Origin: Candidatus Aminicenantota bacterium
GTDB lineage: Bacteria > Acidobacteriota > Aminicenantia > Aminicenantales > Saccharicenantaceae
Length of the DNA stretch: 64,000 bases
Direction: 5' to 3'
Assembly: GCA_026393975.1 (NCBI GenBank)
Contig: JAPKZD010000013.1
Coordinates: 1-64,000 of the forward strand
A program made the position numbers and the translations under genes. Shown here in pieces: positions 12,524-19,407 of the stretch; within the stretch, counting starts at the first letter, position 1; every line of letters begins with the position of its first letter. The notes beneath the pieces were generated by a model. It was not told the origin of the DNA and did not search any database. It saw only the letters and a list, made by a program, of their open reading frames with translations.

Positions 12524-13816
12524 TCAGGCGACGACGGTCCTTTTCTTGCCGATGCGCAGCTTCATGGTCAGGATCTTGTCCGACGAGAAGATCCGGGCGG
12601 CGAAGACGACCAGCACGGTGAAGACGACGAGCATGTAAGCGAGCCCGCCGAAGATCATGCCGTAGTTGCCGAGGTAGAGATTCTGCGACACCAGGAAGGG
12701 ATGGGAAAAGGGGATGGCCAGGATGAAGATCTTGATCGGCAGAGAGACGGTGTTGATGTCGGCGAACAGGGAGATGAAATAGGGGATCATGACCATGAAC
12801 ATCAGCGGCATGAGCATGCTCTGGGCGCTGCGGAAGTCCTCGGCCAGGACACCGAGGATCATGGCCAGGGCCAGGGCGACCAGGATGGCCAGGAAGAGGG
12901 ACGCGCCGAGGATGAGATAGCCGGACGTGTCGAAATACAGCCCCAGCTGGCGCATGACGGCGCCGCCCTGGGACGCGGCCGCCTTGAGCTCGTCGCCGCC
13001 GATGCCGCCCATGAAGCTTTTGAAACCGAACATGTAGATGCCGGCCGAGAGGAGGCCAACGAGCCCGGCCGCGAGCATCTTGGCGGTGATGATCGAGGTC
13101 CTGCGGATGGGCACGGTCAGCAGGGTCTCCAGGGTCTTGTTCTGCTTCTCCATGGCCACGGCCGAAATGACCATCTGCGAGGAGTAGATGACGATCATCA
13201 TCAGGACGACGGGGATGAGCAGGGACTGGGACGAGACCATGCCGGCGACCTCTGAGGCCGAAGCCTCGGCCATCCGTTTTTGGACGATGACGAAGTCCTT
13301 GCTCTTGATCGGGTTCTTGAGGCTGGCCGGATCGAGGCCGGGGAGCTTTTCCTTGAGAAAACTGTCGGAGAGGACGTTGTTGAGGGCGGAGATGACGCCC
13401 CGGACGATGGCCGAACCCCGGGCGCCGATGAGGGAGAAGCTCCTCATGTAGGAATAGGTTTCGATTTGGCTCGGCTTGAAATCCTTGAGGGAATCCCCGA
13501 ATCCGGAGGGGATGACGAGGAGAAGCTTCGACTCGCCGCCGCGGGCGATATCGATCGCCTGCTCCTTTGTCTTTTCCTCGATCCGTTCGATCTTGAAGCG
13601 GGCCGACTCGAGCCCCGCGAGGATGGCCTGGGAAGAGGCGGAGCCGTCCAGGTCGAGTGCGGAGATCGTCTGGACGCCGATGGCCTTCTGGACCTCTTTG
13701 CGGCTCATCTGGCCGACGAAGTTGAAGAGCAGGAGCGTGAATGCGAGGGAGACGATCAGCTGGACGTTCACCAGCTCCTTGATCTCTTTCTTGAGAAGGT
13801 TGAGGAATTTTTTCAT
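12524..13816 (-). CDS. ABC-2 type exporter permease (NatB-like)
   Basis: 430 residues. One N-terminal membrane helix (about 18-37), a large extracytoplasmic loop (about 40-190), then five to six helices at the C-terminus. This is the ABC2_membrane_3/NatB architecture. The segment AMEKQNKTLETLLTVPIRRTSII is the typical cytoplasmic coupling region. It overlaps the upstream ATPase gene by 4 bp (ATGA), so translation is coupled. The cargo is unknown; NatAB-type pumps have been linked to Na+ or drug export. Confidence 0.85.
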   Translation of the reverse strand: MKKFLNLLKKEIKELVNVQLIVSLAFTLLLFNFVGQMSRKEVQKAIGVQTISALDLDGSASSQAILAGLESARFKIERIEEKTKEQAIDIARGGESKLLLVIPSGFGDSLKDFKPSQIETYSYMRSFSLIGARGSAIVRGVISALNNVLSDSFLKEKLPGLDPASLKNPIKSKDFVIVQKRMAEASASEVAGMVSSQSLLIPVVLMMIVIYSSQMVISAVAMEKQNKTLETLLTVPIRRTSIITAKMLAAGLVGLLSAGIYMFGFKSFMGGIGGDELKAAASQGGAVMRQLGLYFDTSGYLILGASLFLAILVALALAMILGVLAEDFRSAQSMLMPLMFMVMIPYFISLFADINTVSLPIKIFILAIPFSHPFLVSQNLYLGNYGMIFGGLAYMLVVFTVLVVFAARIFSSDKILTMKLRIGKKRTVVA

Positions 13817-14535
13817 CGGAGGGAACTCCTGAAGACTTCTTCCATGTTCTTAGCCTGATGTCTTTCCTTCAACTCGGCGGGCGTCCCGGAATCGAGGATG
13901 CGGCCCTTGTCGATCAAGGCCACGCGGTCGGAGAGGAACTCGATCTCGAGCATGTTGTGGGAGGAGAGGAGCACGGACGTCCCCTCTTTGACGTAGCGCC
14001 GGACGATCTCCCGGACCTCCAGGGCGTTGAGGACGTCGAGGCCGGAGGTCGGCTCGTCGAGGATGGCCAGGACGGGCTTGGTCATCAGGGCCCGGGCCAG
14101 CAGGATCTTCCGGGTCATGCCCTTGCTGTAGGTCCCGACCTTGGTCTTCAGCCGGTCGCCGAGCTCCGTGATCTCGACGGCGCGGTCGACGAACGCCTTC
14201 TCCTCCTCCGGCGTCCGGGCGTAGAAGTTGGCCATGAAGTGGAGGTAGTCCAGGCCCTTCATGTTCTTGTAGGCGCCGGCTTCCTCCGGAAGATAGCTGA
14301 TCTTCTCCCGGACGAGGTCCGGTTCCTTGCGGAAGTCGTGGTTGAGGAAAGAGATCGTTCCGTCGCCGGGCGTGAGAAGCGTTGCGATGATCCTCAACGT
14401 GGTCGTCTTGCCGGCGCCGTTCGGGCCGATCAGGGCGAACACCTCTCCCGGCCGGACCTCGAAATCGATGCCCGCCAGAGCCATCTGTTTTCCGTAGGTT
14501 TTTTTCAATCCCTTGACGGTCAGGACATTATCCAT
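13813..14535 (-). CDS. ABC transporter ATP-binding protein (NatA-like)
   Basis: 240 residues with Walker A GPNGAGKTT (about 38-46), a signature segment TYSKGMTRKILLARAL in place of LSGGQ (the YSKGM form is usual in ABC-2 exporters), Walker B AILDEPTSGLD, and an H-loop SSHNM. It energises the permease encoded directly downstream. Its own promoter lies in the 78-bp gap after the radical SAM gene, so it can be expressed apart from it. Confidence 0.93.
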   Translation of the reverse strand: MDNVLTVKGLKKTYGKQMALAGIDFEVRPGEVFALIGPNGAGKTTTLRIIATLLTPGDGTISFLNHDFRKEPDLVREKISYLPEEAGAYKNMKGLDYLHFMANFYARTPEEEKAFVDRAVEITELGDRLKTKVGTYSKGMTRKILLARALMTKPVLAILDEPTSGLDVLNALEVREIVRRYVKEGTSVLLSSHNMLEIEFLSDRVALIDKGRILDSGTPAELKERHQAKNMEEVFRSSLR

Positions 14536-14573: not shown

Positions 14574-14602
14574 ATTCTATTGAATACGATAGGAGATGTA
14601 AA
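14574..14602 (-). promoter_or_regulatory. Promoter for the ABC exporter operon
   Basis: On the minus strand TTTACA (14602-14597), 17-bp spacer, TAGAAT (14579-14574), about 40 bases before the ATPase start codon. Confidence 0.55.
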
Positions 14603-14613
14603 CGGGTTACCGA

Positions 14614-16053
14614 CTATTCGAGGTCGATGTCCTCGTGATAGTCCACGGTAACCCTGGCCCGGGAGCCGGGCCGGATCTTGAGGAGCTTGACGGCCCGGAG
14701 GAACGTCTTGTTGCGGCGCCTCCAGGTCCGGTTGAGGTTCCGGGCGTAGTGGGCGATCGCGACGCCGAGCCACTGGCCGGCGGCGATTTTCCGGACCGTC
14801 TCCTTCAGCGAATAGAACTTCCGGTGGGCGAAGATCTGCGCTTTCTGGAGGTCGGGGAGCGAGAAACGCGCCGGCTGGAAGACGGCGTGATGGGCGTCGT
14901 AGAGGGCCCAGTCGTGGAAACGGATCCGGTTCTCCGAAGTGATCCGGTCGTAAAAGGCGGAGCCGGGAAGGGGGGTCAGGATGAGGAACTGGGTCGATGT
15001 CAGGCGGGCCCTCTTGGCGAACCGGACCGTCTTGCGGACCGTTTTCCAGTCGTCCTGGTCGAAGCCGAGCACGAACATCCCGTGGATGTGGATCCGGCAA
15101 CGGCGGAAGACCTTGACGGCGCGGACGATCTCGGCCACGGTCTGCTTTTTCTTCATGCCCTCGAGCGCCTCCGGGTTGACGGATTCGAAGCCGATGTAGA
15201 CGGTGTGGCAACCGGCCTTCTTCATGAGGCGGACGAGATCCGGGTCCCGGGCGATGTCGGCCCGGACCTGGGTCGTCCACTTGAACCTGAACCTCTCGCG
15301 GATCATGGCCTCGCATAGGTCGTGGGTCCGCTTCGGGTCGGCCGCGAAATTGTCGTCGTAGAAGAAAATGAGGGTCTTCTGGGCGTTGTAGAGGCGGAGC
15401 TCCTCAATGATGTTCTCGGTCGAGCGGAAACGGTATTTCCGGCCGAACATGCCGGTCACGGAGCAGAAGGAGCAGTCGAAGGGACACCCCCGCGACGTCA
15501 GGACGGGGATGGACGACATGTGCTTCGTGCCCTTCGCGTCGGGCCGGAGAAGGGTAAAGTCGGGGAAGGGGATGCGGTCGAGGTCCGAAACCCGGGGCGC
15601 CATCGGGTTGTGGACGACGTTCCCCGCGGCGTCCTTGTAAGAAAGGTTCGGGACATCGGCCCAGCCGCTGTTGTGCTCCCGGGCGTCGATGAAAGCCGCG
15701 AGGGCCGCCTCGCCTTCGCCCCGGACGACGAAATCGGCGTGCTCCAGGGCCTCCTCGGTGAGGTAAGTCACATGGGGCCCGCCCATGAGCACCGGGACGC
15801 CCATCGCCCGGGCCCGGTCGGCGATGGCGTAGGCCCGGGGCGCGGTCGAGGTGATGGTCGAGATGCCGACGAGGTCGGCCGAGGCGACCACGTCGAAATC
15901 GATCTTCCGGAAATCCTCGACGTAGACCTCGACGTCCCAGCCGCGCTTCTTCATCATCGTCCCCAGAATGAGCGTTCCCAAACGGGGCAGGGGGAACTGG
16001 CTGAAGATGTGGAGGTTCGGCGCCTGCGGTTCGATGAAGACGATTTTAGGCAT
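14614..16053 (-). CDS. B12-binding-domain radical SAM protein
   Basis: 479 residues. Residues about 1-145 form a cobalamin-binding Rossmann-like domain (VGISTITSTAPRAYAIADRA, VLMGGPHVTYLTEEAL). The radical SAM cluster motif is RGCPFDCSFCSV (CxxxCxxC, about 195-205), followed by a TIM-barrel half (FYDDNFAADPKR, IGFESVNPEALEGMKK) and a basic C-terminus. The family includes BchE-like cyclases and C- or P-methyltransferases, and the substrate cannot be read from the sequence. It overlaps the MerR gene by 8 bp, so the two are co-transcribed. Confidence 0.88.
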   Translation of the reverse strand: MPKIVFIEPQAPNLHIFSQFPLPRLGTLILGTMMKKRGWDVEVYVEDFRKIDFDVVASADLVGISTITSTAPRAYAIADRARAMGVPVLMGGPHVTYLTEEALEHADFVVRGEGEAALAAFIDAREHNSGWADVPNLSYKDAAGNVVHNPMAPRVSDLDRIPFPDFTLLRPDAKGTKHMSSIPVLTSRGCPFDCSFCSVTGMFGRKYRFRSTENIIEELRLYNAQKTLIFFYDDNFAADPKRTHDLCEAMIRERFRFKWTTQVRADIARDPDLVRLMKKAGCHTVYIGFESVNPEALEGMKKKQTVAEIVRAVKVFRRCRIHIHGMFVLGFDQDDWKTVRKTVRFAKRARLTSTQFLILTPLPGSAFYDRITSENRIRFHDWALYDAHHAVFQPARFSLPDLQKAQIFAHRKFYSLKETVRKIAAGQWLGVAIAHYARNLNRTWRRRNKTFLRAVKLLKIRPGSRARVTVDYHEDIDLE

Positions 16054-16768
16054 CGCTTCCCTCCTTGGTTTTTTTCCCCCGTTTACAATTTTTAGCCTGG
16101 ATGGCCAGGACGTCCTTTCTCTTCTTCTTGAGGAGATCCTCCCAGCGTTCGATGCCCTCCTCGAGGAGCTTCATCTTGTCGAAAAGCCCCTGAATGGCCC
16201 CGAGCATGGCCTCGAGCTTTTTCTCCACTTCGGCCCGGGGGAAGGAATTGGGGGCGGCCTCGATGGCCAGGAGAGTCCGGACGTCGTCCGAGACCGCCTT
16301 GACCTCATCGAGAGTATAGCCGAAGAGCTGCAGGTCGCGGATGAGCTTGCAGAGGAAAACGTAGGATTCCGAATAGAGCCGGAAGCCGCCCTCCGTTCGC
16401 ATGTCGGGCTCGATGATGCCCTTGTCCTCCCAGTGCTTGATCGTCCTCGGGCTGACGTTGGAGCGCTCGGCCAGGTTCCCGACCGTGAGGAAGCGGTCCT
16501 TGTCCCGGGCCCGCTTACGGCCGCGCCCGTCATGGGGCAGGCCGACCTTCTTGATGATCTTCAGGATCTCCTCGGTCCCGTAGCCGAGGTCGGCGAGCCT
16601 CCGGATGTGAGCGACGCGCTCGAGGCTCCCGGCGGCGAAGAGGGGGGCCTTGCCGCTGCCGAAGCCGTCCGGCTTGAGGAGCTTAGCCTTGGTCCATGCG
16701 GCGAGGCGGTCGGGGGGGACGCCAACCTTGCGGGCCAGGTCGTCGAGAGTGAGCACATCATTGTTCAT
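16046..16768 (-). CDS. MerR-family regulator with two HTH domains in tandem
   Basis: 240 residues. A first MerR-like winged helix (about 5-70: LTLDDLARKVGVPPDRLAAW, then HIRRLADLGYGTEEI) is followed by a second, more canonical one (about 93-160: FLTVGNLAERSNVSPRTIKH, GGFRLYSESYV, LIRDLQLFGYTLDEV). A coiled coil (about 180-220) and a basic tail follow. No clear metal or drug-binding domain is visible. It probably controls its own operon with the radical SAM gene; the promoter and an inverted repeat lie just upstream. Confidence 0.85.
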   Translation of the reverse strand: MNNDVLTLDDLARKVGVPPDRLAAWTKAKLLKPDGFGSGKAPLFAAGSLERVAHIRRLADLGYGTEEILKIIKKVGLPHDGRGRKRARDKDRFLTVGNLAERSNVSPRTIKHWEDKGIIEPDMRTEGGFRLYSESYVFLCKLIRDLQLFGYTLDEVKAVSDDVRTLLAIEAAPNSFPRAEVEKKLEAMLGAIQGLFDKMKLLEEGIERWEDLLKKKRKDVLAIQAKNCKRGKKTKEGSDA

Positions 16769-16778
16769 ACTATACCTT

Positions 16779-16819
16779 TGCGTTCAATTAAGTTTAATAA
16801 ATCATTCAACATGAACGCA
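16779..16819. promoter_or_regulatory. Candidate operator: perfect inverted repeat upstream of the MerR gene
   Basis: TGCGTTCA (16779-16786) and TGAACGCA (16812-16819), separated by 25 bp. The repeat lies between the -10 element and the MerR start codon, and one half-site covers the expected transcription start. It suggests autorepression. Confidence 0.5.
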
Positions 16820-16823
16820 TAGG

Positions 16824-16852
16824 AATATATTATTCATGGAGGAGCTTGTCAA
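16824..16852 (-). promoter_or_regulatory. Promoter for the MerR-radical SAM operon
   Basis: On the minus strand TTGACA (16852-16847), 17-bp spacer, TATATT (16829-16824). Near-consensus; leader about 50 bases. Confidence 0.65.
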
Positions 16853-16860
16853 GGGAAAAA

Positions 16861-18171
16861 TTACGGCCAGGACCATCCGGAGGGGAGCGATCCCCGAACC
16901 TTGGCGATCTCCTCCCCGGCTCTCTTCATGAGCGCCTCGACCTCGTCTCCGGGCGGGGTCGGCCACGGCGTGTCCCCGACCCTCTTCAAGACGGCGTTCG
17001 AGTCCGTTACGGGAGGCGGAAAGGGGCGGCGCCCCGCCGCCCAGGCCCCCCATGACTCCAGGGTTTCCTCGAGAGCGCGGAGCGTGAGCTCGGTCCGCTG
17101 GATGGTCTCTCCGACATCTTTGACGAAGCCCGCCGTGTCACCGGCGAGTTCCGTGATGAGGCCGTCGATGTCGGCGGGCGGGTCGGGTTTGACGTGATCC
17201 TTCCGGACGCTCGTGGTGAGGCCCTGCATGCGCTGGGTCGACTGCCAGATCTCGCGCATCCGCAGCCGGACGAGAGCCAGATGAGCCCCGATTTTGGCCT
17301 TGGCCCTTTCGAACCTCGCCTTGTCCGCCTCGTGAAAAAGCTTCGGCTTCTTCCGCAACGCTTCGAGCTCTTTGAGCAGGCCTTCGATCTGACGCCATCC
17401 GGCCGCGATGTCGCCGGCGGCCCACCGGCAGTAAGGCCGGTGGTAGCCGACCTCGGCCATGTAGGCCCGCAGTTCGTCCCATTGGACGGGCAGCCGGCCG
17501 ACTCTGAACTCGGCCTGGATCCGGGCCACGAGGACGTCGTCGTCCATCCCGGCGTGCATCCCCTCGTGCATCAACCCGCCGGCGAACATGTGGTAGTCTT
17601 CCTCGCGGAGCTCCCGGAGAAGCCGGAGGTAGAGACCATCGCCAAGCGCCCTCCGGAGGCTTGCCTTCGCCGCCTCGTCGCGGAAATACCTCTCGAGCTT
17701 CCCCATTTTTTCTTGGAAGGCGGCGGCCTCGCGTCCGTCGGCCGCGCCGGCCATCCGGCCGACCTCGCCGACGATCGAGCCATCCGTGAAGGTCTTCCGG
17801 TTTTCGACGCAGAGCGAAAGATAGGCCGACTCGTGAACCTCCATGAACAGCCGGCCGTCGGAACTAAAGCCGTGGGTCATGAAGAACGTGCCGGGCCGGA
17901 CGAAATAGGTCTGGTTGGGGAAATACTGCCGGGCCCGTTCCCAGGCGCCGCCGTAGCCCGCTCCGGTCCACTCCCGGGCCGGAAATCCGCCGCGCATGGA
18001 GTAGAGCGGCGAGTCGAGGACGGTCTGGATGATCTCCCGGCAGGGGTCGTCGGGCGGAAAATCTTTGAAGAGCGTCCGTTCGGGAGCCTGCCCCCAGAGA
18101 ACCGGGATCACCGCAAGAATCAATGCCGCGCCTCGGAGGCGGGCTCTCGCCGGGTGGGCGGAGGACGTCAT
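16861..18171 (-). CDS. Secreted protein with an HExxH motif, unknown family
   Basis: 436 residues from ATG 18171; a GTG at 18198 adds nine residues. An N-terminal signal peptide (about 10-30) is present. The body is charged and helical. GLMHEGMHAGMDDD, around residues 218-231, contains a perfect HEGMH (HExxH), the zinc-binding helix of metallopeptidases, followed by acidic residues that could supply a third ligand. I recognise no family. The motif may be chance, but it sits in the middle of a conserved-looking helix. The gene abuts the MerR promoter region, is separately transcribed, and has no informative partner. Confidence 0.7.
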   Translation of the reverse strand: MTSSAHPARARLRGAALILAVIPVLWGQAPERTLFKDFPPDDPCREIIQTVLDSPLYSMRGGFPAREWTGAGYGGAWERARQYFPNQTYFVRPGTFFMTHGFSSDGRLFMEVHESAYLSLCVENRKTFTDGSIVGEVGRMAGAADGREAAAFQEKMGKLERYFRDEAAKASLRRALGDGLYLRLLRELREEDYHMFAGGLMHEGMHAGMDDDVLVARIQAEFRVGRLPVQWDELRAYMAEVGYHRPYCRWAAGDIAAGWRQIEGLLKELEALRKKPKLFHEADKARFERAKAKIGAHLALVRLRMREIWQSTQRMQGLTTSVRKDHVKPDPPADIDGLITELAGDTAGFVKDVGETIQRTELTLRALEETLESWGAWAAGRRPFPPPVTDSNAVLKRVGDTPWPTPPGDEVEALMKRAGEEIAKVRGSLPSGWSWP

Positions 18172-18263
18172 CGGGCTCGTATCGGAGATTTCATGCACCG
18201 GAGAACACCCCTGGGCGGGGTTTCCGGGAGAAATGAGATGTTCTCGTCCGTTCGAGAACGGTC

Positions 18264-18582: not shown

Positions 18583-19407
18583 ATGCCTGAACTTCAAGGA
18601 ACGAACATTCTCTTTCGCCGGTGGCCCGCCTCTCCCGAGCCCGCCTCCCCCAAGGCCGTTTTTCTCCTCGTCCATGGCCTCGGCGCCTATTCGGCCCGTT
18701 GGGGCTTTCTGGCCGGTCACCTCGCCGAACACGGCTTCGCCTCTTACGCCGTCGAGCTCCGCGGCTTCGGCCGGACGCCCGAACGGCCCCGGGGCCACAT
18801 CGGCTCCTTCCGGGTCTGGGACCGGGACATCCTGGAATTGGGCGATATCGCCCGTCGGGAAAACCCCGGAAAGAAAATCTTCCTGCTCGGCGAGAGCCTG
18901 GGCGGCCTTCTCGCCTTCAATTTGGCCTGCCGGAACGCCGACAAGTTCGCCGGACAGGTCCTGATCGCTCCGGCCTTTAAGAACAGGATGAAATTCCCGC
19001 TGAGCGCCTACTTGAAACTCGTCTCGTTACTATTGTTCAACCCGACCCTGATGGTCGACGTGCCCTTCACCTCGGAGATGGTCACCCGCGACCCGGAGTA
19101 TCTCCAAGTCATGAACGCGAGTCCGGACGAGCTGCGTGTGGCCAGCCTGAAGTGCCTGTTCAATTTCTTGCCGGAGCAGGCCGGGTCGCGGAGGCTCGCC
19201 AAAAAACTCGCCGTCCCCACGCTCTTCCTCATCCCGGGCGCCGACCTTCTCGTCGACGAACGGGCCGGGCGGAAGATGTTCCAGAAGCTCCCGCTCGCCG
19301 ACAAGACCCTCCTTGAGTACCCGGACATGCTCCACGCGCTGTCGATCGACCTCGGCCGGGAGAAGGTTTTCAAGGACATTCTCGACTGGGTCGCCCCGAG
19401 GGCTTGA
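18583..19407 (+). CDS. Alpha/beta hydrolase, monoacylglycerol lipase-like
   Basis: 274 residues. The fold markers are HGLGAYSARW (oxyanion region), the nucleophile elbow GESLGG (Ser near 107), an acid residue in PGADLLVDE (about 225-233) and a catalytic His in DMLHALS (about 247-253). The pattern HGLGAYSxRW...AELRGxGRT is that of monoglyceride lipase/lysophospholipase. Its stop is one base before the glycerol kinase start, so the pair would release glycerol from lipids and phosphorylate it. There is no signal peptide; it acts in the cytoplasm or at the membrane. Confidence 0.85.
   Translation: MPELQGTNILFRRWPASPEPASPKAVFLLVHGLGAYSARWGFLAGHLAEHGFASYAVELRGFGRTPERPRGHIGSFRVWDRDILELGDIARRENPGKKIFLLGESLGGLLAFNLACRNADKFAGQVLIAPAFKNRMKFPLSAYLKLVSLLLFNPTLMVDVPFTSEMVTRDPEYLQVMNASPDELRVASLKCLFNFLPEQAGSRRLAKKLAVPTLFLIPGADLLVDERAGRKMFQKLPLADKTLLEYPDMLHALSIDLGREKVFKDILDWVAPRA

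Follow-up and report, generated by a model that had tools for sequence, protein, structure and literature searches.

A putatively autorepressed operon of a two-headed MerR-like regulator and a B12-binding radical SAM enzyme, possibly lipid-related, in several bacterial phyla

Introduction

A merR-like gene of a Candidatus Aminicenantota bacterium carries an inverted repeat at its start, which raises the question of whether the encoded regulator acts at its own promoter and, if so, which genes it controls. The window, which is the whole stretch of 64,000 nucleotides analysed here, places this gene directly before a gene for a B12-binding radical SAM enzyme. We compared the gene pair, its promoter and its protein products across related genomes. 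The pair seems to be an undescribed, possibly lipid-related control unit that is present in several phyla; the open-licence PMC literature searched contains no description of the regulator or its motif.

Results

The gene pair and its surroundings

The start of the radical SAM gene overlaps the end of merR by 8 nt (Table 1), and an overlap is also seen in 29 of the 34 loci where both genes occur, which agrees with the pairing given in the preliminary description. The ABC genes follow the radical SAM gene, as that description had stated. A promoter-like element, TTTACA-17-TAGAAT, precedes them and recurs with small changes in L011, L015, L016, L017, L019 and L020 (by eye); in the near relatives it has a conserved CGTAT-type spacer. 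Outside close relatives, the ABC genes do not occur near the unit. This restricted nearness, together with the apparent promoter of their own, indicates that the ABC exporter is probably not part of the unit. In L015, the gap between the radical SAM and ABC ATPase genes contains a long, perfect-looking hairpin, ccaccaaccccg...cggggttggtgg, which is absent from the window and could represent a terminator or small mobile repeat. Upstream of merR, a 445-aa frame has no Pfam match (E≤0.01).

Table 1. Features of the unit and of its neighbourhood in the window
Feature	Positions	Strand	Basis or remark
merR-like regulator, 240 aa	16046-16768	-	ORF list, Pfam, AlphaFold2
B12-binding radical SAM enzyme, 479 aa	14614-16053	-	ORF list, Pfam
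-35 element TTGACA	16847-16852	-	promoter search; conserved among loci
-10 element TATATT, 17-bp spacer	16824-16829	-	promoter search; conserved among loci
Site A, CCTATGCGTTCATG	16810-16823	-	core GCGT 16815-16818 at predicted start of transcription
Site B, CCTTTGCGTTCAA, inverted relative to site A	16775-16787	+	covers Shine-Dalgarno
Repeat arms TGCGTTCA/TGAACGCA	16779-16786 and 16812-16819	+	exact; 25 bp between
Shine-Dalgarno-like AAAGG	16775-16779	-	inside site B
ABC genes	12524-14535		follow radical SAM gene
Promoter-like TTTACA-17-TAGAAT of ABC genes, outside unit	14574-14602	-	by eye
445-aa frame upstream of merR	16861-18198	-	
Hydrolase_4 alpha/beta hydrolase	18583-19407	+	Pfam

Promoter and repeat in the window

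The merR promoter, TTGACA-17-TATATT (11/12), extends from 16852 to 16824. The repeat TGCGTTCA/TGAACGCA begins 4 bp after the -10 element and thus lies downstream of it and outside the spacer, as had been proposed. The predicted start of transcription falls on site A, judged by the distance from the -10. After the -10 element, the leader consists of site A, an AT-rich stretch and then TTGAACGCAAAGG (site B), which includes the Shine-Dalgarno-like AAAGG 6 nt before the merR ATG. The exact repeat has a single match in the window, where 0 are expected, and extends to 16 nt at 88%. However, dinucleotide shuffling of the 84-bp region also yields a perfect inverted repeat of at least 8 bp in 80 of 2000 shuffled sequences; taken by itself, the 8-bp repeat is therefore weak evidence, and conservation had to decide.

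Conservation of the sites

In the species collection, 46 loci contain the regulator, counting one weak partial match (L060) that was set aside; in the family it is present in 12 of the 34 genomes, source genome included. The compared upstream regions number 48 (the window, L011, L013 and L015–L059), two of which, L030 and L032, are nearly identical there. Going by their record titles, these loci mostly belong to Aminicenantes; the others come from Neomarinimicrobiota, Ignavibacteria, Spirochaetes, KSB1, Fermentibacteria, Eisenbacteria and further groups. An ACGT-type core is present at the merR promoter in 48/48 regions. The cores were chosen by hand to anchor the alignment, an unsupervised search having mixed sites A and B. 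Site A has the consensus ATTCcTATACGTACATGTT among the 20 nearest loci, and the remaining 28 give AtAc.TATACGTacACTtATA. On the other strand, site B reads ACCTATACGT in the nearest loci, is weaker elsewhere and is absent in 5/48 loci. The distance between core A and core B is 34 or 35 bp in all 20 nearest loci; over the 43 loci in which it was taken, it is 34–35 bp in 26, 28–31 bp in 13 and another value in 4. In this alignment, the common element is site A, which is often a dyad, and site B is constant only in the relatives of the window. The "perfect inverted repeat" of the preliminary description, exact and single as it is, is therefore better read as two similar sites in opposite orientation than as one dyad: the second half of site A is degenerate in the window and the inverted site B stands out, so that one wide inverted repeat is perceived.

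As a control for the hand-chosen cores, a matrix with the consensus ACCTATACGTATACGT was built from the first set of loci and applied to genomes that were not used in building it. Of 34 further merR places in the class, 7 were excluded because their contigs had been used before. In the remaining 27 genomes, which are class relatives and include some near-identical upstream regions, the matrix finds a site at p≤0.01 in one or the other orientation in 27/27, where two orientations per locus give about half a hit by chance over the whole set. The check that had been suggested, a look for the same repeat upstream of homologous operons, is positive for the core in all 48 regions and for the matrix site in all 27 further genomes. 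Both orientations reach p≤0.05 in 27/27 as well; given the near-palindromic form of the site, this is not evidence of two sites. The best A and B matches fall at different places in 9/27 and more than 20 bp apart in 2/27. In many test genomes, ACGT cores follow each other at 6 bp in a compact array, of which TATACGTATACGTATA is an example. The upstream regions of L157–L163 likewise contain ACGT-core arrays with a 6-bp period, for example ACATATACGTATACGTATACTT, whose sequence suggests two or more adjacent half-sites.

Position of the sites relative to the promoter

The spacer of the merR promoter is 17 bp in 41/48 loci, 16 bp in 5, 18 bp in 1 and 20 bp in 1 (L030; the near-identical L032 gives 17 bp). 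Core A lies after the -10 element in 42/48 loci, with 5 bases between the two in 28. The dyad lies within the spacer in L051–L053, where the spacer is 17 bp, and perhaps in L048, and the site overlaps the -10 element in L058/L059. A protein bound at core A would cover the start of transcription, and all the site places seen fit occlusion of RNA polymerase. In contrast to classic MerR activators, which untwist a 19–20 bp spacer that contains their site, the window has a 17-bp spacer and a site after the -10. The preference for repression over classic MerR activation that had been voiced earlier is in line with these positions, which make repression more likely.

The regulator protein

Two stretches of the regulator match Pfam MerR_1, with 76.8 bits for the window protein against a gathering score of 21.6, which places it in the MerR family; the MerR_1 and MerR models match 43/43 aligned regulators (E≤0.001). 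The AlphaFold2 run modelled the regulator monomer (mean pLDDT 82.9, pTM 0.65), and 43 of the 48 regulators were included (L011, L013, L032, L049 and L056 were left out). The model consists of a winged helix (residues 5–75), a disordered linker (78–91), a second winged helix (93–171) and a long helix (178–238) that follows the DNA-binding domain. The MerR protein with two HTH domains of the preliminary description thus reappears as two MerR_1 stretches and two modelled winged-helix units. Among the folds listed by Foldseek and VIA-align, on which the comparison rests, residues 5–74 superpose on TipAL (rmsd 1.4, 70 residues) and residues 94–234 on CadR (rmsd 2.3, 125 residues). PADLOC defence profiles gave only generic-looking matches, mad1 (residues 91–135) and PDC-M51A.

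In the aligned regulators, hardly any variation is seen in the C-terminal recognition region (3.76 bits per column), whereas the N-terminal recognition region has 2.33 bits per column and the N-terminal wing 2.11 bits. Residues 55–79 (GY, KK, GLP), which follow the N-terminal recognition region, are well conserved (3.07 bits). This difference between the two recognition regions suggests that the DNA site is most likely read by the C-terminal head; the N-terminal head most likely serves contacts or sensing.

Enzyme and partner genes

The enzyme matches the Pfam B12-binding (62.7 bits) and Radical_SAM (88.6 bits) domains, and the cysteines of its CxxxCxxC motif (C190, C194 and C197) are invariant in 23 sequences, which places it among the B12-binding radical SAM proteins. 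It falls under the curated cut-off in all of the best 25 of the 26 NCBIfam models matched. Of 22 aligned relatives, 18 are 58–96% identical to the window enzyme, and the other 4 (L058 and three without merR) are 44–50% identical. Judged by sequence, the enzyme is a family of its own, and the alignments show this family to be more conserved than its regulator. Diverged radical SAM homologues also occur without merR. In L127–L132, which belong to a sister genus, such homologues are 46–50% identical and lack merR, and a gene for a 771–790-aa protein lies nearby in 5/6 regions.

The gene directly downstream of merR on the same strand encodes a radical SAM enzyme in 32 of 46 loci, DUF6051 in 11, HlyIII in 2 and a GDSL lipase in 1; two of the 48 loci (L049 and L056) are cut by contig ends and stand outside this count. 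Pfam confirms DUF6051 in 8/11 loci and HlyIII in 4/6 loci of its cluster, the rest being assigned by sequence cluster. DUF6051 sits between the regulator and the radical SAM gene in L050 and L057, and HlyIII follows the radical SAM gene in 4 loci. The class contains the regulator in 55 of 142 genomes, with the radical SAM gene downstream in 47/55 and DUF6051 in 4/55; the remaining 4 are cut or partial at a contig end (G010, which has part of the radical SAM gene, G049, G130 and G092). In L058 and L059, a divergent AMP-binding (acyl-CoA-synthetase-like) gene stands at a distance of about 0.3 kb; in L051 the distance is about 2.5 kb.

DUF6051 is an alpha/beta-hydrolase. According to PMC11878206, the one paper on DUF6051 in the literature searched, these proteins keep a catalytic triad, and fatty-acid-CoA ligase genes occur together with the genes that encode them. 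The partners, the AMP-binding neighbours and the DUF6051 data together point, by association, to acyl or lipid chemistry, and we offer a lipid role of the enzyme or the unit as a tentative suggestion that falls somewhat short of an even chance. A Hydrolase_4 gene of the monoacylglycerol-lipase-like type also lies 1.8 kb upstream of merR on the other strand; its presence is perhaps chance or part of the lipid theme.

Sites elsewhere in the genomes

The strict double-site pattern was matched in 13 of the 41 locus genomes, at the merR promoter (by comparison of positions) in 12 and inside a 907-codon frame in one. The exact palindrome CCTATACGTATAGG occurs in 1 of 142 class genomes, at the merR promoter by position. 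The two window sites are the sole perfect copies of CCTWTGCGTTCAW in the source genome among the matches listed. A regulator of this kind looks as if it acts locally, essentially on one operon. A wider regulon in the source genome was considered and rejected: CCTATACGTATAGG with 3 mismatches gave 34 sites there versus 86 in the reversed control, hence no signal, and none of the nine one-mismatch CCTWTGCGTTCAW sites, whose context was inspected by eye, has a like promoter before it. With 2 mismatches, CCTWTGCGTTCAW gives 84 forward and 82 reverse matches in the source genome (G000) versus 42 and 47 in the reversed control, and this roughly twofold excess would allow for weaker target sites.

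Discussion

The unit is real and well conserved. We consider it probable that merR and the radical SAM gene form a two-gene operon which is autorepressed by the MerR-like protein bound at its own promoter sites. We infer the protein-site binding, the dimer, the repression, the signal and the lipid role from the sites and the layout, and it is the position of the sites that suggests autorepression. The MerR-like protein would probably dimerise via its long C-terminal helix, and the conserved C-terminal winged helix would bind the ACGT-type sites, namely site A at the predicted transcription start and, in the lineage of the window, also site B over the Shine-Dalgarno region. The bound regulator would block RNA polymerase and keep the expression of merR and the radical SAM gene low until a signal releases it from the DNA. 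For the N-terminal winged helix, a role in contacts or sensing is more likely than a second reading of sequence. A lipid or acyl compound may be what the enzyme modifies or turns over, and DUF6051, HlyIII or GDSL lipase, which stand next to this regulator in other lineages, may have the same lipid or acyl role. Counted against autorepression are the non-uniform position of the site (L051–L053 and L058/L059), the site B that is weak or missing in many loci, the excess of two-mismatch matches in the source genome, the radical SAM homologues without a regulator and the kinship of the 27 test genomes within the class.

In a different arrangement, which we regard as unlikely, both heads of each chain read DNA, and sites A and B, which lie about three helical turns from each other, are joined by the dimer, so that a short loop would enclose the transcription start and the ribosome-binding site. 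Monomer binding, named beside bridging in the preliminary description, may also apply. In favour of bridging, both halves are modelled as MerR winged helices (the TipAL and CadR superpositions), and the inverted sites keep their distance of 34–35 bp in the 20 nearest loci; however, the N-terminal recognition region and wing are weakly conserved, the A–B spacing varies between loci and site B is not general. Still more doubtful is the extended version of bridging, a new MerR class in which the four winged helices of the dimer would span the two inverted ACGT sites and switch a B12-dependent radical modification of membrane lipids, with lipid hydrolases taking the place of the enzyme in other phyla.

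That the sites are read by another regulator, with merR merely a target, appears very unlikely. The assignment of the protein to the sites comes from sequence, which leaves room for this reading, but the strict double site stands beside merR in 12 of the 13 genomes hit and only once elsewhere, and the association of the site with merR persists across several phyla in spite of a changing downstream gene.

The repeat could also be a leader RNA hairpin that hides the Shine-Dalgarno sequence, since arm B covers AAAGG, and in 21 loci all five pair measures are slightly above the shuffle means and above slid versions: 80.6% of positions are paired versus 79.2% in shuffles, covariation is 0.175 versus 0.151 (44/500 shuffles as high) and pair types number 16 versus 14.0 (33/500 shuffles). 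However, arms from the same locus agree at 9.10 of 12 positions and arms from different loci at 8.89 (permutation p=0.19); some loci have no site B; and in L051–L053 site A is upstream of the start of transcription and thus outside any transcript. Arms that barely covary and each follow one consensus fit binding sites of one protein, and we hold the hairpin to be highly improbable. Classic MerR activation through the untwisting of a long spacer is hardly credible: the MerR type of the protein and the site within the spacer in L051–L053 speak for it, but the spacer is 16–18 bp in 47/48 loci and the site is at or after the -10 in 42.

Under the favoured reading, autorepression by the C-terminal head, the parts are ordinary (a MerR fold and likely autorepression) and the combination is not. 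The unit offers a sharply defined regulator-site pair in several phyla of mostly uncultured bacteria. Its site, position and alternative partners make the mechanism directly testable, and an inducer could reveal the pathway of the enzyme.

Comparison with known systems

The best NCBIfam matches of the enzyme are HpnJ and BchE, both B12-type radical SAM proteins, and its scores stay well under their cut-offs (165.7 versus 577.6 bits and 161.5 versus 481.35 bits, respectively). The LiuR motif is presumably TTTACGTnnACGTAAA, which would resemble TATACGTnnACGTATA of the window unit. As described in PMC5343134 and PMC7238569, LiuR is a MerR regulator of branched-chain amino acid degradation that regulates many catabolic genes, with a mean of 13.7 per genome, in contrast to the window unit with essentially one operon. 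The MerR winged helix of CarH, a B12-binding MerR photoreceptor (5c8d), aligns with residues 92–164 of the window regulator, but the regulator scores 21.3 bits versus the CarH cut-off of 400 and has no match to a B12-binding domain (Pfam, E≤0.01). The fused HspR type (NF047377), which NCBIfam describes as a fused HspR homodimer, matches weakly and over residues 70–153 only, with 39.5 bits versus a cut-off of 300.

CvkR, which we take to be single-headed, was compared by its structure (7xn2). PMC9938897 presents it as a MerR-type repressor of type V-K CRISPR-associated transposons, which at the tnsB promoter, as is predicted for the unit studied here, covers the start of transcription, together with part of the -10, next to a 17-nt spacer; unlike the unit, it has the motif AnnACATnATGTnnT and targets transposon genes. 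FtsR/Rv1828 of Actinobacteria, described in PMC6683498, is a MerR chain of about 250 residues whose DNA-binding domain is N-terminal, and its targets (ftsZ) and site differ from those of the window regulator. The window protein scores 32.7 bits versus the FtsR (NF050798) cut-off of 150. The C-terminal domain of Rv1828 (5ydd) superposes on the C-terminal winged helix of the window regulator with an rmsd of 3.2 over 80; since this domain is also a MerR-like fold, the plan with two folds is unusual rather than unique. The regulator would be a further case, besides FtsR/Rv1828, of two MerR-like folds per chain; in it, the C-terminal fold carries the DNA-reading signature.
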